From positions 1-64,000 of IMG/VR virus record IMGVR_UViG_3300028840_000888: a stretch of DNA of 64,000 bases. One strand, 5' to 3'. Below, in pieces: positions 3,047 to 58,730 of this stretch; the first letter of the stretch is position 1; each line of letters begins with the position of its first letter. Source of the DNA: a virus. The position numbers and the translations under genes are program-made. The notes beneath the pieces are model-generated. The model was not told where the DNA came from. It made no database searches and was given only the letters and a program-made list of their open reading frames with translations.

Positions 3047-3117
3047 ACCAATTTAGAAATTGGGTGTCTAAATGGTCTGTTTGGGTATTGACAATAGCTT
3101 AGTTATATGGTAGAATA
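3016..3117 (+). repeat. 102-bp promoter block, copy A
   Basis: Matches 8220-8321 at all but about three positions over 102 bases with no gaps. It holds the tail end of a coding sequence (codons reading ATG TTC TAA), the CCTTGCGGTCATTTT element, the palindrome CAATTTAGAAATTG, a GTCTAAA box and a sigma70-type promoter. Looser relatives occur at 5667-5802 and 11752-11838. Confidence 0.9.
3088..3116 (+). promoter_or_regulatory. Sigma70-type promoter P1
   Basis: TTGACA (3088-3093), 17-bp spacer, TAGAAT (3111-3116). The upstream palindrome CAATTTAGAAATTG and GTCTAAA box look like operator sites. It should drive the genes from 3170 onwards. Confidence 0.8.
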
Positions 3118-3951: not shown

Positions 3952-5151
3952 ATGACAGAAGAAAAAGGGACGGAATTAGCAGAGCAACAGAGACAGCATG
4001 ATATTATTGGATATGAGGGGAGCGAGGCGTATCAGCAGCAACGTGCTATCATCAAGGCATCGGCGCCGTTTGCAGAGAAAATGACGGCGATACAAATTGA
4101 CTATGTTGCACGGCGCTCTTATGCCTTAGGCGTTGATCCGATGAACAGCCACGAAGGCCACTGGTATCTCGACAAGAAGAACAAGGTGCAGTTTCAATGG
4201 GCTTACCAGCTCATTGAACAGTTTATAGCCAAGTTCCACGGCCAGCATACCATGCCCAAGTACCGTGAGCTTGAAACTGAGGAATTGGTAGCACGCGGCC
4301 TTAATCCCGATGATCATGCCGTCGAGGTCGTCTTCTTCATGAATGACGACCTACCAAAGGTTTATGAGGCAGCGGCATCCGGTGCCTTCGATGTCCATGA
4401 GGCCCGCGAGATGTTCATGATGCGCGGGATCGGAACGGCGACGGCTAAGGAGTGGGATACGTGGTATTTCGCCCCGGCAGGGCGCGACAAGCGGTGGAAG
4501 ATTGAGAAACGGGCGGTCACGGACGCACTGATCAAGCGTTTCGGGACGCCAAACCGCGCTCAGGTCTCGCAGTTGCGCCGTGATCGTGGTCAAGATGTGA
4601 TCGAAGCCGAGGACTGGCAAGACACCGAGGGCTTAGCACCTGGCGATGCCGTAGCCCTCGCAAAGTTACATGCCCAGGATCGTCAGCGCGCGCCGATGAG
4701 CCGCGAGGATATGTGCGCAGCAAAGGAGGCGCTATTTGGTGCGCCCAAGAAGCATGCAGGGGAGCAAGCGCCGGATGAGGATGTGCAGGACGGCGAGTTC
4801 ACCATGACGGATGAGGCTACGCCAGAGCCGCCACCGGATCCGCTGGATGAGCACTTCCCACGTGAGGATGACGAAGCTGCCAGCGACACTGAGCCCAAGC
4901 CGGCACCAAAGCTGGAAACCAAAGGCGACTATTTCAACGCCATCCTTGCGGCAGTGAAGGAGTTCCATGCCCTCACGAGCTTGGATCTCAAACGAGTGCC
5001 TGATGGCAAGTGGAACATCGAGCGGGCACGAAAGGCGCTTGAGATAATCGTAGTTGCAAATTCCTCAATAATGGCATCACAAGGGCTTGACGAAGCCGTT
5101 GATTTCTACGACATCCACAGCGAGGTCGGTCAGGCCCTCGCACAGGTATAG
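3952..5151 (+). CDS. Putative RecT/Bet-like single-strand annealing protein
   Basis: 399 residues, AAAGGAGTGAG before ATG 3952. The segment YALGVDPMNSHEG followed by a beta-rich stretch and QLIEQFIAKF resembles the core of RecT/Bet annealing proteins, which have a GL.P...E...I pattern. KRAVTDALIKRFGTP around residue 190 is also seen in such proteins. Residues ~230-340 are low-complexity, acidic and proline-rich. The C-terminal 60 residues are helical. This assignment rests on pattern only; a different replication accessory role is possible. Confidence 0.45.
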   Translation: MTEEKGTELAEQQRQHDIIGYEGSEAYQQQRAIIKASAPFAEKMTAIQIDYVARRSYALGVDPMNSHEGHWYLDKKNKVQFQWAYQLIEQFIAKFHGQHTMPKYRELETEELVARGLNPDDHAVEVVFFMNDDLPKVYEAAASGAFDVHEAREMFMMRGIGTATAKEWDTWYFAPAGRDKRWKIEKRAVTDALIKRFGTPNRAQVSQLRRDRGQDVIEAEDWQDTEGLAPGDAVALAKLHAQDRQRAPMSREDMCAAKEALFGAPKKHAGEQAPDEDVQDGEFTMTDEATPEPPPDPLDEHFPREDDEAASDTEPKPAPKLETKGDYFNAILAAVKEFHALTSLDLKRVPDGKWNIERARKALEIIVVANSSIMASQGLDEAVDFYDIHSEVGQALAQV

Positions 5152-6850: not shown

Positions 6851-7229
6851 GCAAGAATTTCGGTTTGAGGTACGTCACGTGTTTATCGATCGGCCTGAGC
6901 AAGTTGGGCGAGATGATCTAGTATTCAATGCCCCGCGTCCTATCCCTGGGCGCGTGGTATTCAACGGGCAGTTTATTCATGGCCGCTTCTATGCGGCCTT
7001 TGAGTATAGCGACGATGACTACCGGCTATGCCTCAAGCGGTGCCATGAGCTTGATGCGGTGCTCGTGATGTACCATGACAAGGATGCCGAGATTGCCGGG
7101 ATTCGTGAAGCCGTTCAGGAGTTCTATGATGCACAAAGGCCCGGATTAGTAGATGTGTCTGAGCATGGTGACAATGTTGTTTTGCGGTCATGGTTACAGC
7201 ACATCGCCGTAAAGGAGATTATGCTGTGA
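6843..7229 (+). CDS. Hypothetical protein
   Basis: 128 residues, GAGGAGAAAAG before ATG 6843. The middle part (FNGQFIHGRFYAAFEYSDDDYRLCL) is beta-rich and the C-terminus helical. Its stop overlaps the GTG start of the next gene (GTGA). No family recognised. Confidence 0.7.
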   Translation: MNEQEFRFEVRHVFIDRPEQVGRDDLVFNAPRPIPGRVVFNGQFIHGRFYAAFEYSDDDYRLCLKRCHELDAVLVMYHDKDAEIAGIREAVQEFYDAQRPGLVDVSEHGDNVVLRSWLQHIAVKEIML

Positions 7230-8230
7230 ACGCCCCGCAATACCCGGAGCGCGGCTGGCTTCTTCCATACCTCCTACTCCTGGATGGCGTGAAGGCCACC
7301 CGCAATGACTACCCGACAGACCTTAGCAAGAAACAACTTGCCAAAATTGGGCCGCTGCCGTATAGCGGCCCTTGTCGTTGGATGTACTGGTCGTGGATAT
7401 GTGAGCATGTTGATCTGCCCGCCGCGCCCATCCCGCAACTACACTTTACCGCAGCGCCGCAGCACGTAGACATGCGCCACATCCAGGAGTGCTTGCGCTA
7501 TCCTGTACGTAGGCATTGGCAATGGTACGACGAGGCTTGGATATTCATGGTCAAGTGGTTATTGCACGGCTTCGGGCGCCGCGACCTTGAGGACGAGGTG
7601 GCACGCATCCCGGAGGATGTACGTGAGCAATGGTACAGGTTTTTCAACCTGGCCCACTTGCTACACTCGCCCTGCGACTGGTCGGCCTTCATCTTGCAAG
7701 GCGGCCTACAAGACGACAAGCGCACGAAGTCACCCTGGGCCAGTACCACCGGCTTCTACTCCACGCCCATGCCTGTGATCAAGCTAATGAGTGATGTCAC
7801 GATGGGCGAAGCTGATCCACTCATTGACCAGCGCCTTGTGTCCGTCCACGACTGCTGCTGCGGTAGCGGTTCCATACTCCTGGAAGCCAGCAACCGATCA
7901 CTACGGCTATCCGGCCAGGACATTGTACACTCGCTGTGCCTGTGTGCGGAGTTGAACGGCTATCTATTCGCGCCCTGGCTGGTCATAATGCCGAACAATG
8001 TGCGCGAGATGTTGGATCACAAGTACAAGCAGATGATGGCCGTTGTGAGGATGCGCGACTTGCTGCGCGGCGATGTGTGGGCGATGCCGGACATCCAGGA
8101 AGCGCCGGTGGGCATTGAGGTATCCACGGATACGGCGACAGCCGAGAGGGCCGTAGAGCGCGCAGTGAAGGCCGCGAGCTTTTGGGAACATGTACAGGCG
8201 GGCGAGATTGAGCAGATGAGCATGTTCTAA
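7226..8230 (+). CDS. N6-adenine methylase-like protein lacking the NPPY motif
   Basis: 334 residues from GTG 7226 (AAAGGAG nine bases upstream; overlaps the previous stop). Residues ~175-215 carry the hallmarks of type I/HsdM-like methylases: a TPMPVIKLM target helix and the SAM-binding motif DCCCGSGSILLEA. After this, the expected catalytic (N/D/S)PP(Y/F/W) tetrapeptide is absent; the equivalent region reads APWLVIMPNNV. The SAM pocket is kept and the catalysis probably lost, so it may be a SAM-dependent regulator or DNA-binding protein. Its last codons are contained in promoter block copy B. Confidence 0.65.
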   Translation: MNAPQYPERGWLLPYLLLLDGVKATRNDYPTDLSKKQLAKIGPLPYSGPCRWMYWSWICEHVDLPAAPIPQLHFTAAPQHVDMRHIQECLRYPVRRHWQWYDEAWIFMVKWLLHGFGRRDLEDEVARIPEDVREQWYRFFNLAHLLHSPCDWSAFILQGGLQDDKRTKSPWASTTGFYSTPMPVIKLMSDVTMGEADPLIDQRLVSVHDCCCGSGSILLEASNRSLRLSGQDIVHSLCLCAELNGYLFAPWLVIMPNNVREMLDHKYKQMMAVVRMRDLLRGDVWAMPDIQEAPVGIEVSTDTATAERAVERAVKAASFWEHVQAGEIEQMSMF

Positions 8231-8321
8231 AACCTTGCGGTCATTTTGATACCAATTTAGAAATTGGGTGTCTAAATGGTCTGTTTGGGTATTGACAATA
8301 GCTTAGTTATATGGTAGAATA
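8220..8321 (+). repeat. 102-bp promoter block, copy B
   Basis: Near-perfect direct copy of 3016-3117. Here the first 11 bases are the real 3' end of the methylase-like gene (M-F-stop), while in copy A they are an orphan. The copy includes the palindrome CAATTTAGAAATTG and a full promoter. Confidence 0.9.
8292..8320 (+). promoter_or_regulatory. Sigma70-type promoter P2
   Basis: TTGACA (8292-8297), 17-bp spacer, TAGAAT (8315-8320), same operator-like upstream sequence as P1. Drives the genes from 8362. Confidence 0.8.
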
Positions 8322-8361
8322 AGTATATTAGATTAACAAGTGAAGTTCAAAGGAGAGAGCA

Positions 8362-8622
8362 ATGCAGAAATTATACCGGTTTTCACGTTATCCGATAGTG
8401 GGTGAGTGGATTGTGTTACGCGATGAGGAGAAGCAGGCCGCGATGGCAGCCATCACAGATGAAGAAAAGTTACGCCTTGAAACGATAGGGCATGCAAAAG
8501 TGATCTATAAAATTAACAACATCACATGGTATGCAACCGTCGCAACGGATTTGATGTTTGAAATTATGCGCCAGAATGAAGAGCGTAGGTATAGAGTTGT
8601 CAAAGGAGAAAGCGATGACTAA
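8362..8622 (+). CDS. Hypothetical protein
   Basis: 86 residues, AAAGGAGAGAG before ATG 8362, first gene after promoter P2. Short beta strand and helix pattern, no motif. Overlaps the next ATG (8615) by 8 bases. Confidence 0.7.
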   Translation: MQKLYRFSRYPIVGEWIVLRDEEKQAAMAAITDEEKLRLETIGHAKVIYKINNITWYATVATDLMFEIMRQNEERRYRVVKGESDD

Positions 8623-9817
8623 AGTACAAGACGTACAGGAGCAATTAGGCATCCCCGTGTCAAGCGTGGAACTTGACATCCGGGGTCTGTTGAGCAAAGG
8701 CCTGCTGATCACCGTGAGTGTACACGGGGCCACGATGATGAGCCGGGGTCTGAACTTGGCTCACTTGGGGATGAGCAAGAAAACAGTGGGCGAGAAGATC
8801 AAGGCCGGACGTGAGGCCATTGATCAGCTTGCCGACCGTGCCCTCAATTCCTGGTCAACGCAGTGTCGCCACTGTGTTGACAAGTATGCCCTGCGACTTG
8901 ATAGCATCGACAAACTGACGGCCTCCAATTCCTGGCGGCTGTTGCTGTTTGATGCCTATGACGATTTCAAGGCGCGGTGGGAGGAGTTGCAGGTCAAGCG
9001 TGAGGCAATCATTGAAGACATCCTCTTTCGCTATGATGACATCATCGTGGTGAATAGGGAGTTCTGGAAGGGCCTAGCGGAGGAGAACTGGCGCGCACTA
9101 CAGGCGCGTTATCCTGAAGGGTTCGCGCTTTCGGTGGGCGATGAGATGTTTGAGCCGGAAGACGGTGAGAAGTACATCGCCTACGTGGTAAGTAGCGCCC
9201 TGGCCGCAATGCCCACGAAGGATCGGATCAAGGCCGGGATCACGGCGAGCTATCACACCTCTATCCTGTTCACCACCGCTGAAGCAGCCAAAGAGGAAGC
9301 AGAGTACTTGGAGGCGGAAGCAGCCCAGGCCCAGGCGCGTGCAAAGATCGCCCAGGCCAATGACATCACATTCACCAAGAAAGCCCGCCAGGAAGCAATC
9401 ATGCAGGCCGAGCTTGACCGTGCGCGGGAAGCCGTGACAGAAGCGGCATCGCCCATCGAGGAGGCCCTGAGCGCGCTATTCGCGCAACTTGAGGCGGGGT
9501 GCAACTCCCTGCTCAAGGGATACAAGAAGAACGGGAGCTTTCGCGGTCGCAGTCTTGATACTGCCAAAGGTTTTATCGACCTGTGGCGGTATATGGGCGG
9601 ATCAGCCTTGTCGGGCAATGATGACCTGGCGCGACTGATCGAGGAAGTGAAAGCGAAGGCCGAGGGTGTGGCCGGCGCAGAGGGCGAAACTAAGGCCATT
9701 GCAGCCGATGGTGTGGCGGAAAGCCTGGCGCAACTCAAGACGATGGTACGGGATCAGGCGAAGGAAGTGGAACGTAAGAGTAAAGCCGCGACCAGGGCGG
9801 CGATGTTGGAACTATAA
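8615..9817 (+). CDS. DUF3150-like helical protein
   Basis: 400 residues from ATG 8615 (AAAGGAG at good distance). The opening, GLLITVSVHG followed by a leading LG motif and a long helical region with YD..V segments, resembles DUF3150 proteins of phages, which are usually found near AAA ATPases; one follows here at 10150. Residues ~220-300 are alanine and glutamate rich and probably coiled coil. I infer a partner role for the ATPase, but the family assignment is only by pattern. Confidence 0.5.
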   Translation: MTKVQDVQEQLGIPVSSVELDIRGLLSKGLLITVSVHGATMMSRGLNLAHLGMSKKTVGEKIKAGREAIDQLADRALNSWSTQCRHCVDKYALRLDSIDKLTASNSWRLLLFDAYDDFKARWEELQVKREAIIEDILFRYDDIIVVNREFWKGLAEENWRALQARYPEGFALSVGDEMFEPEDGEKYIAYVVSSALAAMPTKDRIKAGITASYHTSILFTTAEAAKEEAEYLEAEAAQAQARAKIAQANDITFTKKARQEAIMQAELDRAREAVTEAASPIEEALSALFAQLEAGCNSLLKGYKKNGSFRGRSLDTAKGFIDLWRYMGGSALSGNDDLARLIEEVKAKAEGVAGAEGETKAIAADGVAESLAQLKTMVRDQAKEVERKSKAATRAAMLEL

Positions 9818-9828
9818 GGAGAAAGATC

Positions 9829-10065
9829 ATGAAAGCAACCGAATTGATCGAGTGCAGGGGCAGGATGTACCACGGAAAGCACCATGCCTTCCGAGACTAT
9901 GGAAGCATCACCGGCAAGGATGCACGCGAGTATGTTCTTGAGGATTCAGACGGCAACACACGTTATGAAACGAGCACAGAATTGATCAGCGCAATGTGTG
10001 AAGTTGCGCCGATTGAACTGTGGACAGTAGATGAAGTGAAATGTTACACATTGCTCAGGCAATAG
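9829..10065 (+). CDS. Hypothetical protein
   Basis: 78 residues, AAGGAGAAAG before ATG 9829. Contains RGRMYHGKHHAFRDYGS, a basic patch rich in histidine, and an acidic C-terminus. It sits between the DUF3150-like gene and the ATPase. No family recognised. Confidence 0.7.
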   Translation: MKATELIECRGRMYHGKHHAFRDYGSITGKDAREYVLEDSDGNTRYETSTELISAMCEVAPIELWTVDEVKCYTLLRQ

Positions 10066-10149
10066 AAAGACAGGGGAAGTCACTGATTGGCTTTATAGAT
10101 TTTCACCAGATGGTTGAGCAACATCATGACAATATTTAAGGAGAAAGCA

Positions 10150-11751
10150 ATGAATAGCAAGCAGACGCAAGCCAAGCTGTACCGGATGATCCGGGCACGC
10201 CAGCCCGTGATCGCGGTGCAGTCTTATGAAACCCAGCGCGTTCTGGATAGCATCATCGGTATCATTGATGCTGATGCGGAGCGCACGGGCGCCCGCAAGG
10301 AGCTTTTTGTGTGGTCAGTTACACAGGGGCTACGGCGCATGGGTACGAAAGCCGGGGAGTTGTATGATATGGATGCACCGAAGAATCCTCCGGCAGTACG
10401 GGCGGAGGACGAAGCCGAGTTGTTACCCATGCTTATAATTGATGAGTATGGCGACGCGGAAGATGAACCGGCGCCCAACTGTATCTTTGTCGTCAAGGAC
10501 CTGCACCCGTTCTTGGGAAATCCGTTAGTCGCCCGCGGCATCCGCGACCTTGCCGAGGTATTGACCGTGCGACGCCAGACCGTGATCATGGTGTCACCAT
10601 CTTTCAATCTTCCGGGAGACCTAAAGAAGGACGTGGCCATGATTGACTTGACGCTACCAGATGCGGCCGAGCTTGACGCCCACATTGACGACTTCTTGTT
10701 CAGGGTGCAATGCGAAAGCGCATTGAATGGCGACAAGACCAGCTTGGTGCAAGCCCTTCAAGGTCTGAGCAAACAAGAGGCCGATGCAGTGCTGGCCTCA
10801 GCGGTGATTGAACATGGTGAGTTGGATAGTCGGGCGATCAAGTTCTGCTTGGAGCAGAAGGCCGGGATCATCCGCGAGTCGGGCGCCCTTGAGTACTACC
10901 CGGCAGATGTATCACAAGCAGACGTTGGCGGCCTGGACATGCTCAAACAGTGGCTTGACAGCGCCGGGCTTTCCAATAGTCCGCAGGCGCGGGAGTTCGG
11001 GATTGAACCGGCGCGGGGCACACTGGTTGTAGGTGTCCCCGGTTGTGGAAAGAGCCTCACCGCGAAGATGGTCAGCGCGATGTGGAACCAGCCCTTGCTG
11101 CGCCTTGACGTGGGGGCGCTGTTCGGTAGCCTGGTCGGGGAGAGTGAGGAGCAGGCACGTAACGCTCTCAAGATCGCGTCAGCGGTGGCCCCGTGCATCC
11201 TCTGGATTGACGAGATCGAGAAGGCCCTGGGATCAGGCGGCGGTGAGTCGGATGGTGGCACCAGCAAGCGGGTACTTGGCACCATCCTCACGTGGATGGA
11301 GGAGCAGGGAAACGGTGTCTTCATTTTTGCCACTGCCAATGACATCACCAGTCTACGCCCGGAGTTGGTACGCCGCTTCTCGGAGGTCTTCTTTGTTGAC
11401 CTTCCCGGCGAAGCAGAGCGCGAGGAGATACTATCTATTCATATTATGAAGGTAAATCGAAAGCCGGACGACTTCGACCTTAGCGCGGTAGTCAAGGCGA
11501 CAAACGACTTCACCGGGGCGGAGCTTGAGAAGGTCGTGCAAGCGGCCCTGTGGGCAGCCTTCAAGGAAGACCGCGAGGTCAACACCGCCGACCTGCTGCA
11601 AGCAGCGGGTGACACGGTTCCCTTGAGCGTCACGATGGCCGATGGGATCAAGACCATGCGCGCCTGGTCAAACAAAGCCAAACCTGCCAGCAGCAAGCAA
11701 GAGACTGGGCGTAAGGCTAAGACATCACGCGGGCTGGCTTTGGAACTGTAG
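10150..11751 (+). CDS. AAA ATPase, Ycf46 type
   Basis: 533 residues from ATG 10150 (AAGGAGAAAG upstream). Residues 1-250 are the helical N-terminal region seen in Ycf46 proteins, with a QPVIAVQSYE opening. The AAA module has Walker A GVPGCGKSLTAK (residues 295-306, Lys301), Walker B ILWIDEIEK (Asp354, Glu355), sensor-1 FATAND and an arginine finger region ELVRRFSE. In cyanobacteria and plastids Ycf46 is an AAA protein of poorly known function. Here it is followed by DUF1257 and DUF2997-like genes after a promoter, the gene set found together in many bacteria. Likely a remodelling ATPase acting on partner proteins. Confidence 0.88.
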   Translation: MNSKQTQAKLYRMIRARQPVIAVQSYETQRVLDSIIGIIDADAERTGARKELFVWSVTQGLRRMGTKAGELYDMDAPKNPPAVRAEDEAELLPMLIIDEYGDAEDEPAPNCIFVVKDLHPFLGNPLVARGIRDLAEVLTVRRQTVIMVSPSFNLPGDLKKDVAMIDLTLPDAAELDAHIDDFLFRVQCESALNGDKTSLVQALQGLSKQEADAVLASAVIEHGELDSRAIKFCLEQKAGIIRESGALEYYPADVSQADVGGLDMLKQWLDSAGLSNSPQAREFGIEPARGTLVVGVPGCGKSLTAKMVSAMWNQPLLRLDVGALFGSLVGESEEQARNALKIASAVAPCILWIDEIEKALGSGGGESDGGTSKRVLGTILTWMEEQGNGVFIFATANDITSLRPELVRRFSEVFFVDLPGEAEREEILSIHIMKVNRKPDDFDLSAVVKATNDFTGAELEKVVQAALWAAFKEDREVNTADLLQAAGDTVPLSVTMADGIKTMRAWSNKAKPASSKQETGRKAKTSRGLALEL

Positions 11752-11838
11752 CCTTGCGGTCATTTTTGGCCAATTTCCGAAATTGACTGTCTAAACCAGG
11801 AAATTGGCCCTTGTAATTGCTAAATTATGTGATATAAT
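11752..11838 (+). promoter_or_regulatory. Promoter block with promoter P4
   Basis: CCTTGCGGTCATTTT (11752-11766), a palindromic pair CAATTT/GAAATTG, a TGTCTAAA box, then TTGTAA (11811-11816), 16-bp spacer, TATAAT (11833-11838). Weaker -35 than P1-P3. It separates the ATPase gene from its DUF1257 partner, which allows them to be expressed separately. Confidence 0.7.
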
Positions 11839-11871
11839 AAGTTAAGTAAGTGAAGGTACAGGAGGAAAGTC

Positions 11872-12342
11872 ATGAGCAAATATAAAAATTATACAAGCGT
11901 CATCAAGGATGTCGAACTCTTTAAGGCCGTCCTTGATGACCTGGGTATCCTGTATGAGGAGGGCGACAACATGCCCTTATACGGCTATCTGGGAAAACAG
12001 CGCCAGGAGCACGCTGACCTGGTGATCCGACGGCGCCACGTGAGCCGGGGAGCCAATGACATCGGGTGGAAGCACACCGAAGACGGCTATGTTGCTATCG
12101 TCAGCGACTTCGACCGTGGGCAGATTGAGGACAAGACAACTCGCCAGCACCTCATCTTGTGCAAGGCCATGCAGGAGTATAGCCGTCGGGATGTTCGGCG
12201 CAGGTATGAGGAGAAGGGATACAGAATTGTTAATGAGCGACGTGTCGGGGATCGTATTGAATTTGAGGTTGAGCCGACGCGCCGGGTACGAGTAGCACGC
12301 ACGCAAGTTGAACGCCAGGCGCGCGTAAGGGTGCGGAGGTAA
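11872..12342 (+). CDS. DUF1257 (Ycf35-like) protein
   Basis: 156 residues, AGGAGGAAAG before ATG 11872. The opening SVIKDVELFKAVLDDLG with a later DIGW and EDGYVAIVSD, then a helix QEYSRRDVRRRYEEKG, matches the DUF1257/Ycf35 pattern (an N-terminal alpha-beta unit, a YDIGF-like strand, and a tyrosine-rich helix followed by two strands). The last ~25 residues are very arginine-rich, an extension that could bind nucleic acid. Family function is unknown; it travels with Ycf46 ATPases and DUF2997. Confidence 0.75.
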   Translation: MSKYKNYTSVIKDVELFKAVLDDLGILYEEGDNMPLYGYLGKQRQEHADLVIRRRHVSRGANDIGWKHTEDGYVAIVSDFDRGQIEDKTTRQHLILCKAMQEYSRRDVRRRYEEKGYRIVNERRVGDRIEFEVEPTRRVRVARTQVERQARVRVRR

Positions 12343-12345
12343 GTC

Positions 12346-12543
12346 ATGGAAAAGATCATTATCATTATTGAAGCAGACGGCGAGGTAAAGACGCATGTTG
12401 AGGGAGTAGAAGGCCCGGCATGTGAGGCACACCTGGCTCCGCTTGATGGGTTCGGAGAAGTGCGCGAGGAAGGTCACACCGACGACTGGGAGAAGACACA
12501 GCGGCGCGTGGTGAGTGTGCGCCGGGAGGTGAGGGCACGATGA
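12346..12543 (+). CDS. DUF2997-like small protein
   Basis: 65 residues starting four bases after the DUF1257 stop. The start, KIIIIIEADGEVKTHVEGVEG with a following PACE, matches the DUF2997 signature (a beta hairpin I.I...G.V...V.G..G..C). This conserved Cys and the position directly after DUF1257 both support the call. The C-terminal 20 residues are basic. Confidence 0.72.
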   Translation: MEKIIIIIEADGEVKTHVEGVEGPACEAHLAPLDGFGEVREEGHTDDWEKTQRRVVSVRREVRAR

Positions 12544-13707: not shown

Positions 13708-13740
13708 GGCCGCATGGCAAGAAGTCATGCGGCCATTTTT
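13708..13740 (+). terminator. Rho-independent terminator
   Basis: GGCCGCATG (13708-13716), nine-base loop, CATGCGGCC (13726-13734), then ATTTTT. It ends only 14 bases before the next ATG, so it may work as an attenuator for the PP-loop gene rather than a full stop. Confidence 0.75.
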
Positions 13741-13753
13741 CAAAAGGAGAACG

Positions 13754-14815
13754 ATGAACATACAAGACTACGACTATTATGCCCTCGGCGTTAGCGGTGG
13801 CAAGGACTCAACCGCTCTCCTGCTGTGGTACAAATACATGTCTGGGCTACCAATGTCTAAGCTACGCCTTACCACAGCAGATACAGGTAATGAGGATTTG
13901 TTGACCTACGCCTACATTGATATGTTGCGCGACGAAATCGCGCCTATTGAGCGTCTGCAGCCGATGTGTGGGCGTGTTGGCGAGCGAGTGCCGTGTGATT
14001 TCAGCAGCCTGGCAGTATGGAAAAAGCGATTCCCGTCGCGGCGTGCGCGATTCTGTACGCAATGGCTAAAGGTTATTCCGTCGCGTGAGTATGTGGCCGG
14101 GCTAATGCACGAGGGGTCAAGTGTTCATACTGTGCAGGTGGGTGATTTCGACATCACCACAACCGGCCCCATGAAGCATGTCCTTGTGCTTTCCGGCGTT
14201 CGCTGGGAAGAGGGTCGCGCCAGTAATACACGCGGCGAGCGCGCCAGCTTTGAGTTTGACGACGGGTGGATGACGGACGTATACCGCCCTGTCATTGATT
14301 GGGACATCGACGATGTGTGGGCGATTGCCAGCGAGTATCTGAGCTTGGAGCGTGTGGCGCAGATCATACAAGATGACCCGCTGCTCTCAGAACAACATAA
14401 GCGCGATTTGATAGCTAGGCAAGCGGCGCACGGCATCCCGCGCAATCCGCTGTATGACATGGGAGCGCGGCGGGTTGGGTGTTTCCCATGCGTCAACTCT
14501 GTAAAGAGGGAGGTGCGCGCAATGGCGAAGTATCGCCCGCAGCGAATAGACGAGATAGAGCGGATGGAGTGCGATGTCAGCGCCGTGTCATCCGTGGAGT
14601 ACTCCTCGTTTTTCCACCGTAACACTGTACCGATAGCGCATCGCTCAAAAAACATTACCACGAAAGAGGGCGAAAAAATGCGCGTGGCTACAATAATAGA
14701 CATTGTGCTATGGTCAAAGACTCGCGCATTTAATCCTAATCAATTTGATTTCGACCCCGATTTCATGGAACCGCCTAGCGTTTCTGCATGTGATATTGGC
14801 GGAATGTGCGAGTAA
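13754..14815 (+). CDS. PP-loop ATPase, PAPS reductase family
   Basis: 353 residues from ATG 13754 (AAAAGGAGAACG upstream). The PP-loop SGGKDST is at residues 14-20, followed by the TTADTGNE strand. A paired GCFPC cysteine motif near residue 245 and PLYDMGARRVG are typical of phage-encoded members of the phosphoadenosine-phosphosulfate reductase/DndC-like family. They activate a substrate by adenylation, often for sulfur transfer. The exact reaction cannot be told: it may be nucleic-acid or tRNA thiolation rather than sulfate reduction. The phage also encodes a PAPS-type sulfotransferase at 22845. Confidence 0.82.
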   Translation: MNIQDYDYYALGVSGGKDSTALLLWYKYMSGLPMSKLRLTTADTGNEDLLTYAYIDMLRDEIAPIERLQPMCGRVGERVPCDFSSLAVWKKRFPSRRARFCTQWLKVIPSREYVAGLMHEGSSVHTVQVGDFDITTTGPMKHVLVLSGVRWEEGRASNTRGERASFEFDDGWMTDVYRPVIDWDIDDVWAIASEYLSLERVAQIIQDDPLLSEQHKRDLIARQAAHGIPRNPLYDMGARRVGCFPCVNSVKREVRAMAKYRPQRIDEIERMECDVSAVSSVEYSSFFHRNTVPIAHRSKNITTKEGEKMRVATIIDIVLWSKTRAFNPNQFDFDPDFMEPPSVSACDIGGMCE

Positions 14816-39704: not shown

Positions 39705-42104
39705 TTATGGAAACTCATCTGCAAATAGTACTAACTCTTGACAGCGGCATTGTATGATATTTCCCAATGATGCGCCCATGCTTTCATCACCTGGATACAT
39801 CAGGCGCTCGCCGCTAACTGTAAATGGCGTATCTATAGGTCGCTGTTGTCCGTTGGCCGCTCGATGGTTAAAGTTATCTGTCGGCTTAGCTCCGCGCTCC
39901 CTCCCATCCAATGTCGTCAGCCACTCATGCCCGGTGATGTCCACGCCATCCTCGCGCCACACATCATACAGGCGCCGCGTCCCGGCATTGCTGGCGCGTA
40001 GCGTTTGGTCACGGGCGATTAGCTCAAGCCGGTTGGTGGTCAGTCGCTTGCAGGCGAAGAAGGCAGCCTCGCTCAGGTCGTCGGCTTCACAATCTGCCTT
40101 CCCTATCCATCGCTTGAAGAGGGTGTCAATTGATTCCATAGTCTGCGGGATTGACCACCCGCGCACCTGGGCTTCCTGGATGATCTCATTGATTAGGGAT
40201 GAGGAAGTCTGCGCTATCTCGTCGGCAAAGGTCATGGTGTAGTCGTTTAGCCAGTCACCGGCAAACAAGTTGGTCACGTCGAAAGCGAAGCCGTATGCCA
40301 GGGAGGTTAGGTTTGCCTGCGCCGTCACGAGCCCCTCAAGCTGCGGAATGAATATCCCGGCCCATTCGTCGCCGGATTCATTGAGGAAATAGTCTCGCAA
40401 CTCTTGGCTGGTTGCTTCCCAGTTGATGGTTTGTTTCGCCTGGCGGGCCTTTTTCTTTGCCCGCATGATGATCTGCATTACAGCGCGGCGGTCATTCTTG
40501 AAGCCTTCAAGTGCGGCATCCTGCAAGATGGGCTCATACTCAATGGCTACGGCATCGCGCTGCTTCCATAGCATTTCCTTCTGCTCGTGGTCAAGACGCT
40601 TGATCTGACGCGTTTTGGCGCGGTCGGTGTCGTCTTCGGTAGCCTCTACTGCCCCCGCTTCATCATCTGGTAGTTCCTCAAAGACCGGCTGCATGATGGT
40701 TTGCAAGTTCACCTTGAGCACATCACCATTGGGTAATTCCGACAAGCCGGCGGCGCGGCGGTATTCATTCATCGTCACGGCGCTGGCATCCCATCCCTCA
40801 AGTAGCGCCGCCTGCCTATCTGCGCGGATGTCTTCAAATGCGGGTATCTGCGAGTAGTCAAAGCGGATGAAGTAACCGCTATCGGGCTGCCCCAAGTAGT
40901 AGTTATACTCCTGCTCAAACCAGCCAAGTTCTGGCACCATCGTATCTTCCCAGAACGCCTTGCGCGCCTCTCGATAGTTTTCGTAGGTAGAACGCAGTAG
41001 GCCCAAGCGGGCGCCGACAAGGATCAGCGGAACGCCGAACACCATCGCTATCCGGCTTTCATTGCGCTGGTCTATGAGGTCTAAATCCATTTCTTCCGGG
41101 CTTAACATGATACGCTGATACTCACCGTCGGCATCCGTCACGCCGACCTCCCCGCCGTATAGCTCCTGCCAGCGCTCCTTGATACGACCCATGACTTCCT
41201 CGTCAAGCGGCATACTAAAGTTGAGTATGCCGTCCATTGTCTTCCGCATCTTGTCGATGAGTTCTGAGAAGTATAGGGTGATGTCGTTGTCCATGTCCAC
41301 GTTGTATGCGGCGGCTGACAAGGGAGAAAGGCCATAGCCCATGCCCTCAAGCGGATCCAACAGATTCGGCAATTTGACATGCATCATGTCTTGGGCCGGG
41401 ATACGGACGGCCCGCTCGGTGTCACCCGGCAGCACACCTTCGGGCGTGTAGATGTAGCCGACCTTCGCAAAGCCGTTCTTGGAACGCACTAACTGTCCGT
41501 AAGCCTTGCGCTCATATCTGGTCATGGGCCGGCGCCAAGTATCCATGACATTATTGCCGCGCTTCTTTGCTGTGATGATGTCATAGTTTTGCAAGGCGAT
41601 TATCCACACGCGGTCGGGACGCAAGGGGTGTAAGCCAATGGGTAAGCCGGTCTTGGGGTCGCGATCAATCATCACGAATGAGTTGCCGTCGATGTTCAAA
41701 TAGGCTTCATTGAGGCCCTGAAACTCCGGCTGACTCTGGTATGTGTTCGGGCGGTCGAGAAGCTTGGTCAAGTCGTTGTCTGCGGGCAATACTTCGGGCT
41801 GATCCCGCGTACCCTCGTAAGCCCGCAGCGGCGCGGCGGTGATGGCGCGAACCTTATACATGATGCAGGCATACACCAGGGCGTTGCGGTTGAATCCGTC
41901 CAGCACATAGCTTTGGTAATCCGTGATGTGGTGCTGTGGTATCTCGGCGCGTGAGGAGAAGTCTAGCGGCATGAATTTGGTGTTTACGTTGCGCATCCGG
42001 CGCTCCACGTACATCATCATTTGCAGGTCTTCATCGCGGCGCTGCTTAAATAAATTAGCTTTGTAAACCTTTGGCCTAAATAATCGATCAATCCATTGCG
42101 GCAT
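39705..42104 (-). CDS. Portal protein fused to MuF head-morphogenesis domain
   Basis: 799 residues. Residues ~55-470 are an HK97-type portal (NALVYACIMYKVRAITAAPLRAYEG; HPLRPDRVWI; GMGYGLSPLSAAAYNVD; NESRIAMVFGVPLILVG). The C-terminal part is a Mu gpF domain: IARDQTLRASNAGTRRLYD, WLTTLDGRERG, then MYPGDES and CRC near the end. Fusions of portal and MuF are known but uncommon. It forms the packaging vertex, and the MuF part probably sits inside the head. Confidence 0.92.
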   Translation of the reverse strand: MPQWIDRLFRPKVYKANLFKQRRDEDLQMMMYVERRMRNVNTKFMPLDFSSRAEIPQHHITDYQSYVLDGFNRNALVYACIMYKVRAITAAPLRAYEGTRDQPEVLPADNDLTKLLDRPNTYQSQPEFQGLNEAYLNIDGNSFVMIDRDPKTGLPIGLHPLRPDRVWIIALQNYDIITAKKRGNNVMDTWRRPMTRYERKAYGQLVRSKNGFAKVGYIYTPEGVLPGDTERAVRIPAQDMMHVKLPNLLDPLEGMGYGLSPLSAAAYNVDMDNDITLYFSELIDKMRKTMDGILNFSMPLDEEVMGRIKERWQELYGGEVGVTDADGEYQRIMLSPEEMDLDLIDQRNESRIAMVFGVPLILVGARLGLLRSTYENYREARKAFWEDTMVPELGWFEQEYNYYLGQPDSGYFIRFDYSQIPAFEDIRADRQAALLEGWDASAVTMNEYRRAAGLSELPNGDVLKVNLQTIMQPVFEELPDDEAGAVEATEDDTDRAKTRQIKRLDHEQKEMLWKQRDAVAIEYEPILQDAALEGFKNDRRAVMQIIMRAKKKARQAKQTINWEATSQELRDYFLNESGDEWAGIFIPQLEGLVTAQANLTSLAYGFAFDVTNLFAGDWLNDYTMTFADEIAQTSSSLINEIIQEAQVRGWSIPQTMESIDTLFKRWIGKADCEADDLSEAAFFACKRLTTNRLELIARDQTLRASNAGTRRLYDVWREDGVDITGHEWLTTLDGRERGAKPTDNFNHRAANGQQRPIDTPFTVSGERLMYPGDESMGASLGNIIQCRCQELVLFADEFP

Positions 42105-48764: not shown

Positions 48765-50251
48765 TAAAACAGCCTCCGTTGTTCAGCCCGCGCCCGTTCG
48801 CGCCGGGGCTGCTGCCCTTGAAATAGCGGCGCGTCCAGTTCCACCGCGCCGGTGATGTCCCAATGTTGTACCCTAGCGCGGGCGATGTCTAGGTAGTCGT
48901 CTACCATGTCAATGCCCACCACCTCATCCCACCCGTCCTGCAATGCCGCGAGAACCTCGGAGCCTGAGCCGCAGAATGGGACTAATAGCCGCCTTGGGGT
49001 TTCGCGTGGCGGGGGGAGCAGTAGCGTAGCGATGTAACGCAGGATTTCGAGCGGTTTCACCGTCGGATGGATATTGCCCGTGGCGCGCTGGCGTTTGGGC
49101 GTCTGCTCCCACGTCTCTTTGTCTATCCGGCGGAATCCCGACGGGCGCCGTTTGTCGCGTACCCAATAGAAGTCATCAAGGCCCTTATGGCGCTCACTCG
49201 GTGAGGATTTCGCGCAGTAGTAGAAGCGGGCGGCGGTGCCTGTGTCGGCTCCGCGTGGGTTATTGACCACACGTGCCTTATGGCCGGTGCGCCACGCGCC
49301 ATGTTTCATTTCTGGCAGACTTCGCCCTTGTCCACCACTTGGCCGCTCCCCGCTCTGCTCCGCAAGGGCACGGACTTGGCAGCCGGGCCGCTCGTGGTCG
49401 TCGGTCTCGCACTCACAGCTTAGTAGCGTATTCTGTGGGAAGGCACCTTTGGTGGTGGTGCCGCTATACTGTTGTTTAGCTCGTGTCCCTGACCCTTCGC
49501 CTAAAAGCTGCCCATTCTGATAGGCATTATGGCATAGCGGCCTCACTGTGCTTTCTCCCCACCTCTCAATCCTACACCCGCCCACGTTCAGCCCACCGCA
49601 GCCCCACACGCGGGCGTTGTTGGCGAAGGTGCCGTCGCGCTGATTCTGCGCGATGATGATGGGCTCGTGTGACGGGCGCAGGTTGCTGTGGTAGTCGTCC
49701 CAATCGCGGGCGAGGTCGGTGGCGGGTGCGGTCTGCTTCGCTTGTCCGCGTGTTTCGCTATAAAGTCCCGCCCTTGCTGTGGCGCGCTGATACGTTCCGT
49801 TTGCGAAACGCTTGCGCCCCACAACCTCCCGTTCCGCCCCCGCCTCCTCATCCAACTTCTTGGAGATATTGGCACCCTTCGCAAATCCCTGCGAGTGCAT
49901 CCACGCGATGCAATCACGGATTTCGTACCCGCCGAGCCGCAGCCCTAATGACAGGAAATCCTGTGTGCGTGTCCCGCCAAACGCAAATAGCAGCGCGCCG
50001 GGCTTCTGCACCCGTCGCACGGCTTGCCACGCCGCAGGCGAGGGCATCACATCCCACTTGCGCCCCATAAACCCGGCGCCAGTGTTGTACTCTTGCATAG
50101 CAAGCCACGCCTGCAGCAGGTCGATGGTTTTACTCGTCGTCATGTCCGCCAACGCATACGGCGGATCCGTCAGCACCGCGTCAAACGTGCGCGGTTCCAT
50201 CTGCGCGAGCACTTCAGCCACGTCACCGAGGTAAAAGGTTGCAGTACTCAT
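48764..50251 (-). CDS. DNA methyltransferase, DPPY type
   Basis: 495 residues. Motif IV DPPYAL is at residues ~30-35 and the SAM-binding motif I LVPFCGSGSEVLAAL near residue 440, the beta-class order for N4-cytosine/N6-adenine methyltransferases. HPTVKPLEILRY precedes motif I, as usual. The long middle part is the target-recognition region. No partner endonuclease is encoded nearby, so protection of phage DNA from host restriction is the probable role. Confidence 0.9.
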   Translation of the reverse strand: MSTATFYLGDVAEVLAQMEPRTFDAVLTDPPYALADMTTSKTIDLLQAWLAMQEYNTGAGFMGRKWDVMPSPAAWQAVRRVQKPGALLFAFGGTRTQDFLSLGLRLGGYEIRDCIAWMHSQGFAKGANISKKLDEEAGAEREVVGRKRFANGTYQRATARAGLYSETRGQAKQTAPATDLARDWDDYHSNLRPSHEPIIIAQNQRDGTFANNARVWGCGGLNVGGCRIERWGESTVRPLCHNAYQNGQLLGEGSGTRAKQQYSGTTTKGAFPQNTLLSCECETDDHERPGCQVRALAEQSGERPSGGQGRSLPEMKHGAWRTGHKARVVNNPRGADTGTAARFYYCAKSSPSERHKGLDDFYWVRDKRRPSGFRRIDKETWEQTPKRQRATGNIHPTVKPLEILRYIATLLLPPPRETPRRLLVPFCGSGSEVLAALQDGWDEVVGIDMVDDYLDIARARVQHWDITGAVELDAPLFQGQQPRRERARAEQRRLF

Positions 50252-50436: not shown

Positions 50437-50626
50437 ACCCCCGCTTGTGTTGTCCACCGTAAACAATGCGGCGCTGCTCAATTTTCTTCAAGGATACCAA
50501 AACCCTCAAATTATGCTGAATCCCACCTCGCGTCACTCCGAACCTTCGTGCTATCTCGGCACTTGTGCGCCCAGGATATTCACGAATCACGTCAAGGATG
50601 TCAGCTTGTGCCGGTGATAGTTTCAT
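50417..50626 (-). CDS. Winged-helix DNA-binding protein
   Basis: 69 residues from ATG 50626. SPAQADILDVIREYPGRTSAEIARRFGVTRGGIQHNLRVLVSLKKIEQRR is a clean MarR/IclR-like helix-turn-helix with wing. It ends in aromatic residues. Likely a small regulator of this lysis/modification region. Confidence 0.7.
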   Translation of the reverse strand: MKLSPAQADILDVIREYPGRTSAEIARRFGVTRGGIQHNLRVLVSLKKIEQRRIVYGGQHKRGYEYYAV

Positions 50627-50789
50627 CAGGTATTCTAAACTCCTTGCGGTCTTTGAACTCCTGCTGCTTCCCCACATGCCACCCCTGTACAGGCGATAGG
50701 TAGCCGACGATGCGTGAGAAGACATCGCACGGCACGCCCGTCGGTACTTCTTCCTCTGTTTCTTCTTCCAATGGTTCGACCTCGTTCAT
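50601..50789 (-). CDS. Standalone NrdD C-terminus-like peptide
   Basis: 62 residues. PCDVFSRIVGYLSPVQGWHVGKQQEFKDRKEF is strikingly close to the C-terminal end of anaerobic ribonucleotide reductase (NrdD), including RIVGYL, which corresponds to the glycyl-radical segment. The rest of NrdD is absent. Short NrdD-tail proteins may be glycyl-radical spare parts, but no activase is seen here. Overlaps genes on both sides. Confidence 0.65.
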   Translation of the reverse strand: MNEVEPLEEETEEEVPTGVPCDVFSRIVGYLSPVQGWHVGKQQEFKDRKEFRIPDETITGTS

Positions 50790-53323: not shown

Positions 53324-54778
53324 CTAGAAGAGCCTGATCTGCACTTTCTCGCGCTCTCGCGCCAGTTCGTCATAGTCCGGGTTTAGCTCGATGCTGGCGG
53401 CCCGGCGGCGGTGCTGGTGGGCTACGCGCGCGGTGGTGCCTGAGCCGCCGAATGGGTCAAGGACGAGTTGCGGGCGCTTGGGGGCTGCATCGAGTTTGGC
53501 GAGGGTAGCGGCGATGTACTTAGGCGGGTGTTCTGGTAGCTCGTCAAGTTGCACTTGCAGGATGGCGCGTTTGGCGACGTTGGTTTCGTTGTCAATGCGG
53601 CGTTGTAGCTTGCGGCGCTCGATGTAGTCGTGGAAGGATTGCATGTCGATGTCGGGGTAATGGTTGCATTGAGGGATAAAGGCGAGGGTGTTGTGTTCAT
53701 GCGCCGCCATTCTGCCCATGTTACTATGCCCGCGATTCAAAAAACACGCGCCGCTCTTTTCGCGGCCCTCGCCGCCGCCGGTGCTGGTAGCACTGCCCAA
53801 TTGCACAACCCTTCTCCACGCCCTCCCACACACCGGGCACTCCCCCACCGCTGACGTGGACGCCAACAAAAACGGCTCCACGAGATCCGGCGGGAATACC
53901 GCGAAGTGCGCGCCGCTGTAGGGGCGGGGGTTCACGCGCAATAATAGCGGGTTGCCGTCGTCGGCGTGGTGTAGGTCCTTTTGCTGTAGGGCTTCGAGTT
54001 CTGCGAGGTGGGCGCGGGCTTGCTGGATTTCGTGGACAAGGTGCTGGTTGAGGGGGTCGGTGGTGCGATAGTTGCGGCCAGACCCACGCTCATATTCTAT
54101 GATGCTCCCATCCCGACATGAGACCATATTTGTTTTTTTGCTACGTCTAGGAGGTCCGCCACCACTATCGCAACTTGGCACCCGCACCGCATCCGCATCA
54201 TAATAATACCGCTGCGACCGCACGAACTGAAAAATGTACTCGTGCACTTTCGTGGGTCTGTCCTTCACCGACTCCGGCATGGCGTTGGCCTTTATCCACG
54301 GCGGATCACTGCGTAATATCCAGCCGTCGGCTTGCAGGGCGAAGGCGATTCTCCACGGGATGCCGAGGAGGTTTTTTGCGGGGATGCCGGTGCGAGGTGG
54401 CCTTACGCGATTACCTTGCCTCATACCGGGCTGTCCAACTGTGCCGCCGGGTGCATTTTGCGACAAGCCACCAGACTCGTATGAATCACCCAAGTTCAAC
54501 CAAAGCACTCCATCATCCCGCAGCACTCGCGCAACCTCACGAAACACCTGCACCATGTGCAGCGTGTACAGCTCCGGCGTAGGCTCTAGTCCCAAACAGC
54601 CTGTCCACGCCGGGAACGTCAACGAGGGCAGGTTCGGCATAGGGCGGTATTGGCTGGCGGGCCAATATGTACCGGGTAAGCCGTAGTCACGCTGCTGGTA
54701 ATACGGCGGCGAGGTAATACAGCACTGTGCTACATTATCAGCCAGAAAAGGCATATTTAGTGCGTTGGCGTTTATCAT
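53324..54778 (-). CDS. DNA methyltransferase, SPPY type with zinc insert
   Basis: 484 residues from ATG 54778, six bases beyond AAGGAGATG; 54784 is an alternative. ITSPPYYQQRDYG (residues ~22-34) is motif IV of N4-cytosine-type beta methyltransferases and LDPFGGSGTTARVAH (~440) motif I. A cysteine pair at GECPVCGRAW (~315) with later cysteines may form a zinc element in the target-recognition part. Overlaps the initiator-like gene. Confidence 0.9.
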   Translation of the reverse strand: MINANALNMPFLADNVAQCCITSPPYYQQRDYGLPGTYWPASQYRPMPNLPSLTFPAWTGCLGLEPTPELYTLHMVQVFREVARVLRDDGVLWLNLGDSYESGGLSQNAPGGTVGQPGMRQGNRVRPPRTGIPAKNLLGIPWRIAFALQADGWILRSDPPWIKANAMPESVKDRPTKVHEYIFQFVRSQRYYYDADAVRVPSCDSGGGPPRRSKKTNMVSCRDGSIIEYERGSGRNYRTTDPLNQHLVHEIQQARAHLAELEALQQKDLHHADDGNPLLLRVNPRPYSGAHFAVFPPDLVEPFLLASTSAVGECPVCGRAWRRVVQLGSATSTGGGEGREKSGACFLNRGHSNMGRMAAHEHNTLAFIPQCNHYPDIDMQSFHDYIERRKLQRRIDNETNVAKRAILQVQLDELPEHPPKYIAATLAKLDAAPKRPQLVLDPFGGSGTTARVAHQHRRRAASIELNPDYDELAREREKVQIRLF

Positions 54779-54780
54779 CG

Positions 54781-55758
54781 TCATCTCCTTGTCATTACTT
54801 CAACCGCCGTCGGCGGATCCGCAACCATGTCAATCGGCACACGCCACATGCCGGAGTTCTTTGCGCACGTCGTCAAGTAGTTAAGCATCCTGTCCGTGCT
54901 ATTGATTCCCTGACCTGAACCGCTACACAATGCCTCCGCGAATAGTTGCCAGTCACCGCCGAATCGTTCTGTCACGTCTCGTAGACTGGCGCTTTGCTTG
55001 GCGTTAAGCTCCACCGGGCGCCCATCGCCCACGGCCATCGTCATCATCTGCACGAACCACAGTTCATAGCTCTTCAACTCATACACGCGTACCTCATATT
55101 GATCTGTCATGTACCCGGCCATATCCTCAGCGAAAACTTGAGGAGGCGACGCTATGGAGGTAGTAGTATCAGGATGTGTAGTAGCATCAGGCGGTGTAGT
55201 GTCATCTTTTCCTTGAATGACAGGAGTGCCGTGGGCTTTTGCCTCAAAAGCCGGATCCGTACTTTTACATGAATCTTCTATAGCGTTAGGAGGTGCTAGA
55301 GCAAGAGTAATCTTTTGTAGTAATCTTATGGTAATGGTTTGCCCATTTTGGCCATGTGCCTTGTCCATTTTGGCCATGTGGTCAGTCACCCTATCGCGCC
55401 ACACAATCAGTGTTTCTCTTGAAAGCTCTGCGATTCGCTCATAATTTATCGTGTACCAGCGTGTCTGATCACCTGGGCGTTTGTTATAGTTGCCCGTAAC
55501 AATAACTTCAAGGTCTTCCAGCGCATTGACAATTCTACGTATGGTATGCGATGACCAAAACGGGAACTGCTTTTGCCACTCTTTGTAACTATTGTACACC
55601 CACACCTTGTCGTCATTGAAGTGCTTGGAGCGCATAAGCCAGTAGTGAAGCTGAGACAAAAACATGGCCTGGCGGTCACTTTTTAACACGGTTGCGAGGC
55701 GAGTGTCAACTATACGTACTTGCGCTTTTTCGGAATTTGTGGTATTATTATCATACAT
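54781..55758 (-). CDS. Replication-initiator-like protein (DnaD/phage replisome organiser type)
   Basis: 325 residues, AGGAGGTTTTATCTA before ATG 55758. The N-terminal winged helix (residues ~25-105: QAMFLSQLHYWLMRS, WVYNSYKEWQKQFPFWSSHTIRRIVNALE, NKRPGDQTRWYTIN) is the typical start of phage replication proteins. A low-complexity linker (DDTTPPDATTHPDTTTS) leads to a helical C-terminal domain ending QGINSTDRMLNYLTTC. It is separated from dnaB by half the window, and could act at the iteron region. Confidence 0.68.
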   Translation of the reverse strand: MYDNNTTNSEKAQVRIVDTRLATVLKSDRQAMFLSQLHYWLMRSKHFNDDKVWVYNSYKEWQKQFPFWSSHTIRRIVNALEDLEVIVTGNYNKRPGDQTRWYTINYERIAELSRETLIVWRDRVTDHMAKMDKAHGQNGQTITIRLLQKITLALAPPNAIEDSCKSTDPAFEAKAHGTPVIQGKDDTTPPDATTHPDTTTSIASPPQVFAEDMAGYMTDQYEVRVYELKSYELWFVQMMTMAVGDGRPVELNAKQSASLRDVTERFGGDWQLFAEALCSGSGQGINSTDRMLNYLTTCAKNSGMWRVPIDMVADPPTAVEVMTRR

Positions 55759-57650: not shown

Positions 57651-58730
57651 CTAAAACAATAACGGCTGTACTGGCTTAACTTCTTCCGTATCACCGTCAG
57701 CCTCAATTATCGCGGATACCCCGGCGCTGGCGATGCGTTCGGCGGCCACGTCTACCCAATGGCGGTCGATGTCGCAGCCCACGAAGCGGCGACCGAGCTT
57801 GACGGCGGCGACGCCGGTGGAACCGGAGCCGAGGAAGGGGTCGAGGATAAGGTCACCGGGTCGGCTGCTGGTTTTAATGACGTGTTCTAAGAGCGCGGCG
57901 GGTTTTTCGCAAGGGTGTTTGCCCTTGTACGTCTGCACCGTCGGGAATGTCCACACGTCGGTGTACTGGTCTTGAGCGGTGACTTGGAATGGGCGGCGGA
58001 GGTCGTCGTATTCGCGGCGGAGGTAGTCGCCGCCGTGTTGGTTGAGTAATTCGCGTAACTTGGTGTAATGCTCTTTGGTTGGCAATAGCCATTGAGACAC
58101 TGAAAAATAGTGTCTTGACGCCATCCCGCCGGAAGTTGGGCTAAATCCGCACGCCACATTAGCCGCGATTTTACCCGTAGTGCTGAGCATCCCGGCGCGT
58201 TTAAATTCATCTACGATGTAAGTTCTTAGTGGCTCAAACACAAACCCGCGCAACTTATCACACTCGCGCTGGTATCCGCTTTCACTTTTCGCGCTGCTGT
58301 CCGCGCCGTAATGCTCCGCAAAGATGATGCGCTCGGTTTGCGGAAAGTATGCCCGCAACATCTCTTGTTGTACCTTCTTGTGCCATCCCGCATCTTTTAT
58401 CCACACCACCGAATTTAGCACATTAAACCTCTCCCCCACCAAAACTTCCACCCGCGCCGCCTTCGTCGGGTAAGCGCACACATACAGCGAGCCATTGGAA
58501 GCAAGCACGCGGGCGATCCCCTCCAACACCGTATCCAGCCAAGCTAGAAAGGCGTCATCGGTCGGCCATTTGTCCCACGTCGCCTTATTGATGTTATAGG
58601 GCGGGTCAAGGAAGGCCAGCGCCACACTCCCAGCCTCCATCCTCCGTATAAAATCCAGACAATCTGCATGGGCGATGTTTACCGACCCACCTTGCACCTT
58701 TCCTGTTTTCATGGTATCATGTATGCACAT
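57651..58730 (-). CDS. DNA methyltransferase, DPPY type
   Basis: 359 residues, AAGGAGAAAGTC before ATG 58730. FLDPPYNINKATWDKWP (residues ~41-57) is motif IV and ILDPFLGSGSTGVAAVKLGR (~290) motif I of the beta class; HPCEKPAALLEHVI precedes it. Third methyltransferase with this order in the window. Site specificity unknown. Confidence 0.9.
   Translation of the reverse strand: MCIHDTMKTGKVQGGSVNIAHADCLDFIRRMEAGSVALAFLDPPYNINKATWDKWPTDDAFLAWLDTVLEGIARVLASNGSLYVCAYPTKAARVEVLVGERFNVLNSVVWIKDAGWHKKVQQEMLRAYFPQTERIIFAEHYGADSSAKSESGYQRECDKLRGFVFEPLRTYIVDEFKRAGMLSTTGKIAANVACGFSPTSGGMASRHYFSVSQWLLPTKEHYTKLRELLNQHGGDYLRREYDDLRRPFQVTAQDQYTDVWTFPTVQTYKGKHPCEKPAALLEHVIKTSSRPGDLILDPFLGSGSTGVAAVKLGRRFVGCDIDRHWVDVAAERIASAGVSAIIEADGDTEEVKPVQPLLF

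Follow-up and report, generated by a model that had tools for sequence, protein, structure and literature searches.

The window analyzed here, 64 kb of a 73,774-bp IMG/VR virus record that may itself be a fragment, carries genes for a Ycf46-type AAA+ ATPase, a DUF1257 (Ycf35 family) protein and a DUF2997 protein together with a gene for a DUF3150-like helical protein, and the strongest association found for the trio is with NrdG-like radical-SAM proteins. We tentatively read this gene set as an ATP-driven AAA+ remodeling machine with dedicated adaptors that might serve a radical or Fe-S enzyme; the remodeling machine itself is well supported, and its target is the part that we infer. Ycf46, Ycf35 (DUF1257) and DUF2997 occur in cyanobacteria, plastids, many bacteria and phages and have no agreed joint function, and DUF1257 or DUF2997 is named in just three papers of the literature searched. 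In cyanobacteria, the genes for Ycf35 and DUF2997 are clustered with the ferredoxin gene fed7 (PMC4284462), SigD control is common to fed7 and ycf35 (PMC8875361), and the title of a 2015 paper by Jiang, cited in PMC12172450, links Synechocystis Ycf46 to CO2 use. The cyanobacterial and plastid proteins belong to the same families as the window trio; unlike in the window, no DUF3150 has been reported in that system. What is added here is the radical-SAM link, the DUF3150 assignment, a degenerate first tier of the ATPase and a common C-terminal tag, none of which was found in the literature searched (most subscription journals lay outside its coverage). The radical-SAM protein, DUF3150 and the tag provide concrete partners for testing three long-unexplained families, and cultured phages with the trio (infecting Rhizobium, Rhodobacter, Aeromonas and Pseudomonas) make a knock-out feasible.

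Gene order and control elements

On the + strand of the window, the genes follow each other in the order DUF3150-like protein, 78-aa orphan, AAA+ ATPase, promoter block, DUF1257 and DUF2997, with the following features.

8238..8361, + strand: promoter/operator block before the first gene group (sequence, recurring element)
8615..9817, + strand: DUF3150-like helical protein, 400 aa (hhalign to a DUF3150 family)
9829..10065, + strand: small ORF, 78 aa, between the helical protein and the ATPase (no family)
10150..11751, + strand: Ycf46-type AAA+ ATPase, 533 aa (PF00004, E = 1e-26; phrog_8638, E = 4e-129)
10150..10893, + strand: predicted degenerate N-terminal AAA+ domain of the ATPase, approximately residues 1 to 248, no Walker A (AlphaFold2, Foldseek)
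11752..11871, + strand: promoter/operator block before DUF1257 (sequence, recurring element)
11872..12342, + strand: DUF1257 (Ycf35 family) protein, 156 aa (PF06868, E = 2.8e-11)
12346..12543, + strand: DUF2997 protein, 65 aa, with G-x-x-C at 12412 to 12423 (PF11211, E = 3.9e-6)

Pfam searches placed all three families of the trio where a sequence-only reading of the same DNA had seen them, each above its curated cutoff: profiles put ORFs 11872 to 12342 and 12346 to 12543 inside DUF1257 (44 bits against a PF06868 cutoff of 22.2) and DUF2997 (27.1 bits against a PF11211 cutoff of 24.1), respectively. The AlphaFold2 model of the DUF1257 protein (pLDDT of 83) had no fold match in the PDB (best E of 0.45), and its sequence had no match there. 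The cysteine of the DUF2997 motif was retained in 67 of 69 collected family members. No significant match in Pfam or PHROG was found for the 78-aa ORF, whose sole other copy lies in the near-identical contig L010 (IMGVR_UViG_3300017971_000861, a 20.5-kb contig of another record). The ATPase and DUF1257 genes of that contig are identical to those of the window, so this virus has been observed more than once.

The sequence-only reading had also noted a promoter block between the ATPase and DUF1257 genes and had taken it to separate the ATPase from its partners. The block is real, consisting of AAATTGACTGTCTAAA at 11780 to 11795, TTGTAA at 11811 to 11816, a spacer of 16 bases and TATAAT at 11833 to 11838, and it has a counterpart before the first gene group, with AAATTGGGTGTCTAAA at 8261 to 8276, TTGACA at 8292 to 8297, 17 bases and TAGAAT at 8315 to 8320. 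With up to two changes allowed, the 16-base element was found in four copies (at 3057, 5743, 8261 and 11780), all on the + strand, versus 0 copies expected in first-order Markov sequences. Because the same element stands before both gene groups, the promoter block does not cut the ATPase off from its partners, and both groups appear to be under common control. The gene group may be early and the phage lytic, as the same reading had supposed from the look of them.

Predicted tandem architecture of the ATPase

The ATPase starts with ATG at 10150, is covered over its full length by phrog_8638 (a family of unknown function) and aligned full-length with cyanobacterial, Bacillota and Treponema homologues at 38 to 43% identity. 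Its Walker A (11032 to 11055) and Walker B (11203 to 11214) motifs occupy residues 295 to 302 and a stretch ending at 354 to 355, as previously read from the sequence, and G295 to S302 and D354-E355 were conserved in the alignment. In a tree without plastid sequences, it fell in a clade (starred in the tree) of eight viral DUF1257/DUF2997-linked ATPases (SH-aLRT of 99). The N-terminal half (AlphaFold2 pLDDT of 87) matched RUVBL1/2, Vps4 and p97 D1 in Foldseek (E down to 2e-7, probability of 1.00), and none of the 130 relatives that have a recognizable C-terminal Walker A showed a Walker A motif upstream of the C-terminal AAA domain. The AAA+ fold match and the missing Walker A together point to two AAA+ domains in tandem, of which, on these models, the N-terminal tier is predicted to be degenerate (dead) and the C-terminal tier active (live). 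At 11371 to 11392, the ATPase reads RRFSE, two residues short of the usual arginine-finger loop R(K/R)GR(F/L)D.

The AAA domain also matched IetA models (7e-28) and an NCBIfam antiphage ATPase model (8e-24, far below the cutoff of that model), which would fit a host-takeover, antidefense or defense module in which the ATPase keeps a toxin or protease under control, like the IetAS pair. We consider such a module improbable. The similarity is limited to the AAA domain, with a different N-terminal half; IetAS has a subtilisin partner, whereas no subtilisin-like protease was found among the neighbors scanned; neither DUF1257 nor DUF2997 had a PADLOC match; and the system is common to chromosomes, plasmids and phages of many kinds.

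The DUF3150-like protein and a shared C-terminal tag

The helical protein had no direct Pfam match, PF11348 included. When its seven-member family was compared with a DUF3150 family whose members match PF11348 at 1e-18 to 1e-20, hhalign returned a probability of 98.2 and an E value of 3.4e-14 over 283 columns, making the protein a remote DUF3150 relative and upholding its earlier description as DUF3150-like. The protein is conserved upstream of the ATPase in six other viral loci as well, and we infer that it is a dedicated adaptor or client of the ATPase. A Pseudomonas plasmid locus combines a CbbQ_C-type AAA gene with DUF3150 and CobT; since DUF3150 thus also stands beside a CbbQ-type AAA+ and CobT, it appears to be an adaptor serving two AAA+ types.

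That plasmid locus likewise favors a chelatase-like metal-insertion machine, in which Ycf46, DUF1257 and DUF2997 would replace the CobS/CbbQ-type AAA+ and CobT (vWA) that usually accompany DUF3150. The MoxR/CbbQ AAA+ and vWA machines (CbbQO, NorQD, RavA-ViaA, CobST and BssEF) do resemble the window in joining an AAA+ protein to a dedicated adaptor, and DUF3150 occurs with their CbbQ/CobT version. However, the window ATPase is of the PF00004 type rather than CbbQ/MoxR, falls in the classic AAA clade, has a first tier predicted to be degenerate and, unlike those machines, has no vWA protein (no vWA gene was found among the window neighbors scanned); no chelatase subunit or tetrapyrrole gene was seen. 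Metal insertion is therefore, in our view, very unlikely.

In 51 IMG/VR loci (L004, L132-L185), the ATPase occurred without DUF1257 or DUF2997 and with a 280-aa helical partner in their place, usually directly 3′ of the ATPase (47 of 53 viruses lacking DUF1257/DUF2997). This partner was never found with DUF3150, making the two partner sets mutually exclusive, and its identity as a DUF3150 homologue was ruled out (probability of 0.2).

The last residues of the ATPase are SRGLALEL (11725 to 11748) and those of the DUF3150-like protein TRAAMLEL (9791 to 9814). Under a strict tag pattern (R-x(0-3)-hydrophobic-[DE]-hydrophobic at the C-terminal end), the tag was found in the helical protein at six of seven loci of the window-type clade, defined for this count as the window plus six loci, and in the ATPase at five of seven, with a background of 1 in 619 opposite-strand proteins. 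It was also commoner among same-strand neighbors within 2 kb (19/491 versus a background of 2/618, P = 1.5e-5). The tag form was carried by 21 of 47 cellular trio ATPases versus 2 of 39 cellular solo ATPases; other subtypes had a different C-terminal tag, and the C-terminal ends of DUF1257 and radical-SAM proteins, when checked, had none. As 41 of 47 ATPases from viruses without DUF1257/DUF2997 have the tag form too, the tag is not read by DUF1257 or DUF2997; it may be a docking peptide whose reader would be the ATPase or a common partner.

Distribution and genomic setting of the trio

The trio in phages is not new: it is known as annotation, unexplained, and its three genes are already annotated in GenBank for Rhizobium phage RHph_I4. 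The trio was also found in the same order in Rhizobium phage L338C, Rhodobacter phage RcMenchie, Aeromonas phage HJ05, Pseudomonas phage SM1 and Agrobacterium phage JP1, so that the combination picked out in a single virus by the sequence-only reading recurs in other phage genomes. In RHph_I4 and these five phages, ATPase, DUF1257 and DUF2997 share one strand, as in the window; unlike the window, they have a different protein of 200 to 240 aa between ATPase and DUF1257 (with a further one in SM1) and no DUF3150-like gene in the loci tested. In a set of 80 IMG/VR loci surrounding the ATPase, DUF1257 and DUF2997 were both present in 24, one of them in 5 and neither in 51. The trio also occurs on plasmids, and Candidatus Manganitrophus plasmid CP114559.1 carries AAA, DUF1257, DUF2997 and DUF3150 contiguously, the same four families that adjoin in the window, though with DUF3150 last rather than first and on a plasmid rather than in a phage. 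The trio is thus confirmed as a set of families, yet it is not the whole system, given the DUF3150-like partner and, often, a radical-SAM partner. A cellular subtype (L013, L048, L049, L063, L066, L073, L087, L088 and L090) has added Hsp70, GrpE-like and WD40/HEAT genes, and many of its ATPases have a different conserved tail, QFVPLQLE.

DnaB (and PolI) is encoded a few genes downstream of the trio in phages of Rhizobium, Pseudomonas and Agrobacterium, the window DnaB gene (891 to 2327) is on the same strand as the ATPase gene group, and a Pseudomonas DUF3150 locus comes after RecT and a lambda-type exonuclease. This setting would suit a machine that remodels the complex with which the phage replicates or recombines its DNA and that might, for instance, load the replicative helicase or dissociate it. 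We regard that as unlikely: the argument is one of neighborhood alone, and the genes beside cellular relatives are those for radical-SAM, Hsp70, GrpE and WD40 proteins rather than for replication. The protein at 3952 to 5151 looked RecT-like and had no profile support.

Three spirochaete loci (L012, L024 and L035) lie next to the gene for baseplate V or have its neighboring gene family in common, which would fit a factor for assembling virions or tails, comparable to the ATPase gene found in contractile injection systems. In the window, however, the trio is grouped with DnaB and sits on the other strand from the portal gene (39708 to 42104) and most of the long reading frames in the interval from 14.8 to 58.7 kb, and most relatives are not adjacent to structural genes, leaving a role in assembly with little probability. 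The three loci combine the ATPase with a radical-SAM gene (plus DUF2997 in L024 and L035) and baseplate-type genes, and they resemble a contractile injection system or prophage.

Association with NrdG-like radical-SAM proteins

Among cellular or plasmid loci, an NrdG-like radical-SAM gene (PF13353) was present in 31 of the 48 that have DUF1257 or DUF2997 versus 1 of the 39 that have neither (Fisher P = 3e-10; the single exception was a Treponema plasmid), and among viruses, it was present in 12 of 33 with DUF1257/DUF2997 versus 0 of 53 without (Fisher P = 2e-6), related loci not being independent in these counts. In independent tree pairs, all differing pairs agreed that the radical-SAM gene goes with the trio, with only about 3 of 8 pairs differing, too few for significance. 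Proximity was marked: 28 of 32 cellular radical-SAM copies had a trio gene on their own strand at a distance of approximately 100 bp or less. The gene was missing from 17 of the 48 cellular DUF1257/DUF2997 loci. Among the window-type relatives, six of seven records held it (L106, L107, L108, L111, L114 and L121; not L109), approximately 3 to 18 kb from the ATPase; no PF13353 gene was found in the window record (73.8 kb and possibly a fragment), nor was a radical-SAM gene found in the cultured trio phages tested. No NrdD was found in the cellular loci with trio-adjacent radical-SAM copies. The identity of the proteins as the plain NrdG of a viral NrdD was rejected, as a full NrdD was present in only 1 of 11 radical-SAM virus records searched and the proteins scored slightly under the NrdG cutoff.

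In six of six radical-SAM proteins from window-type viruses (L107, L108 and L193 to L196), the C terminus reads R-(M/C)-C-G-(Q/E)-(T/V), or P-R-C-G-E-V in L194, and this C-G tail recalls the NrdD radical loop RxCGY. The window itself encodes, at 50601 to 50789 on the − strand, a stand-alone 62-aa NrdD C-terminal glycyl-radical domain with the motif RIVGY (PF13597 positions 533 to 562, E = 8e-9), whose start codon overlaps the 3′ end of the gene before it; the body of an NrdD was not found in the window record. A C-terminal hairpin of the radical-SAM proteins was considered as a DUF2997 domain and was unconvincing (best E of 0.006).

Proposed mechanism

The sequence-only reading had proposed a protein-remodeling machine acting on a host or replication target. 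The machine is borne out by the active and degenerate AAA tiers, the DUF3150-like partner, the tag and the plasmid unit; the host or replication target is not. In the mechanism that we favor, a two-tier hexamer would pull on or open a target protein, the DUF3150-like adaptor or client would dock through the common C-terminal tag R-x-x-x-L-E-L, and DUF1257 and DUF2997 would form a cofactor pair in which DUF2997 acts via the near-invariant cysteine of G-x-x-C. We are less sure that the target would be a radical or Fe-S enzyme, with a buried site opened for a radical-SAM activase; in the window virus, such an activase would come from the host or be encoded outside the contig. The closest logic to the proposed radical-enzyme target is that of the bss operons, in which the genes of the AAA+/vWA pair BssE/BssF stand beside those for a glycyl-radical enzyme and its radical-SAM activase (PMC7285207), so that AAA+/vWA proteins accompany benzylsuccinate synthase.

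A more specific version, which we hold to be distinctly unlikely, is that Ycf46, DUF1257, DUF2997 and the NrdG-like protein constitute a tag-docked, AAA+-assisted system for radical-enzyme activation or repair. Phages would use it to keep a host radical enzyme (e.g., anaerobic ribonucleotide reductase) working, and the stand-alone NrdD domain could be a spare part.

Additional observations

At several planctomycete and other loci (L025, L031, L046, L053 and L056), the DUF1257 proteins have a hydrophobic N-terminal stretch and may be anchored in a membrane. For a natural DUF1257-DUF2997 fusion there was a single weak candidate (L123, E = 0.0018); several others were artifacts of over-long reading frames. 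Elsewhere in the window, the protein encoded at 13727 to 14815 is PAPS-reductase-like and matches SspD (5e-15) and DndC of DNA phosphorothioation. Three N6/N4 DNA methylase genes lie on the − strand (48767 to 50251, 53327 to 54784 and 57654 to 58730), and a fourth, N6-methylase-like gene is located upstream of the ATPase gene group (7190 to 8230, + strand).
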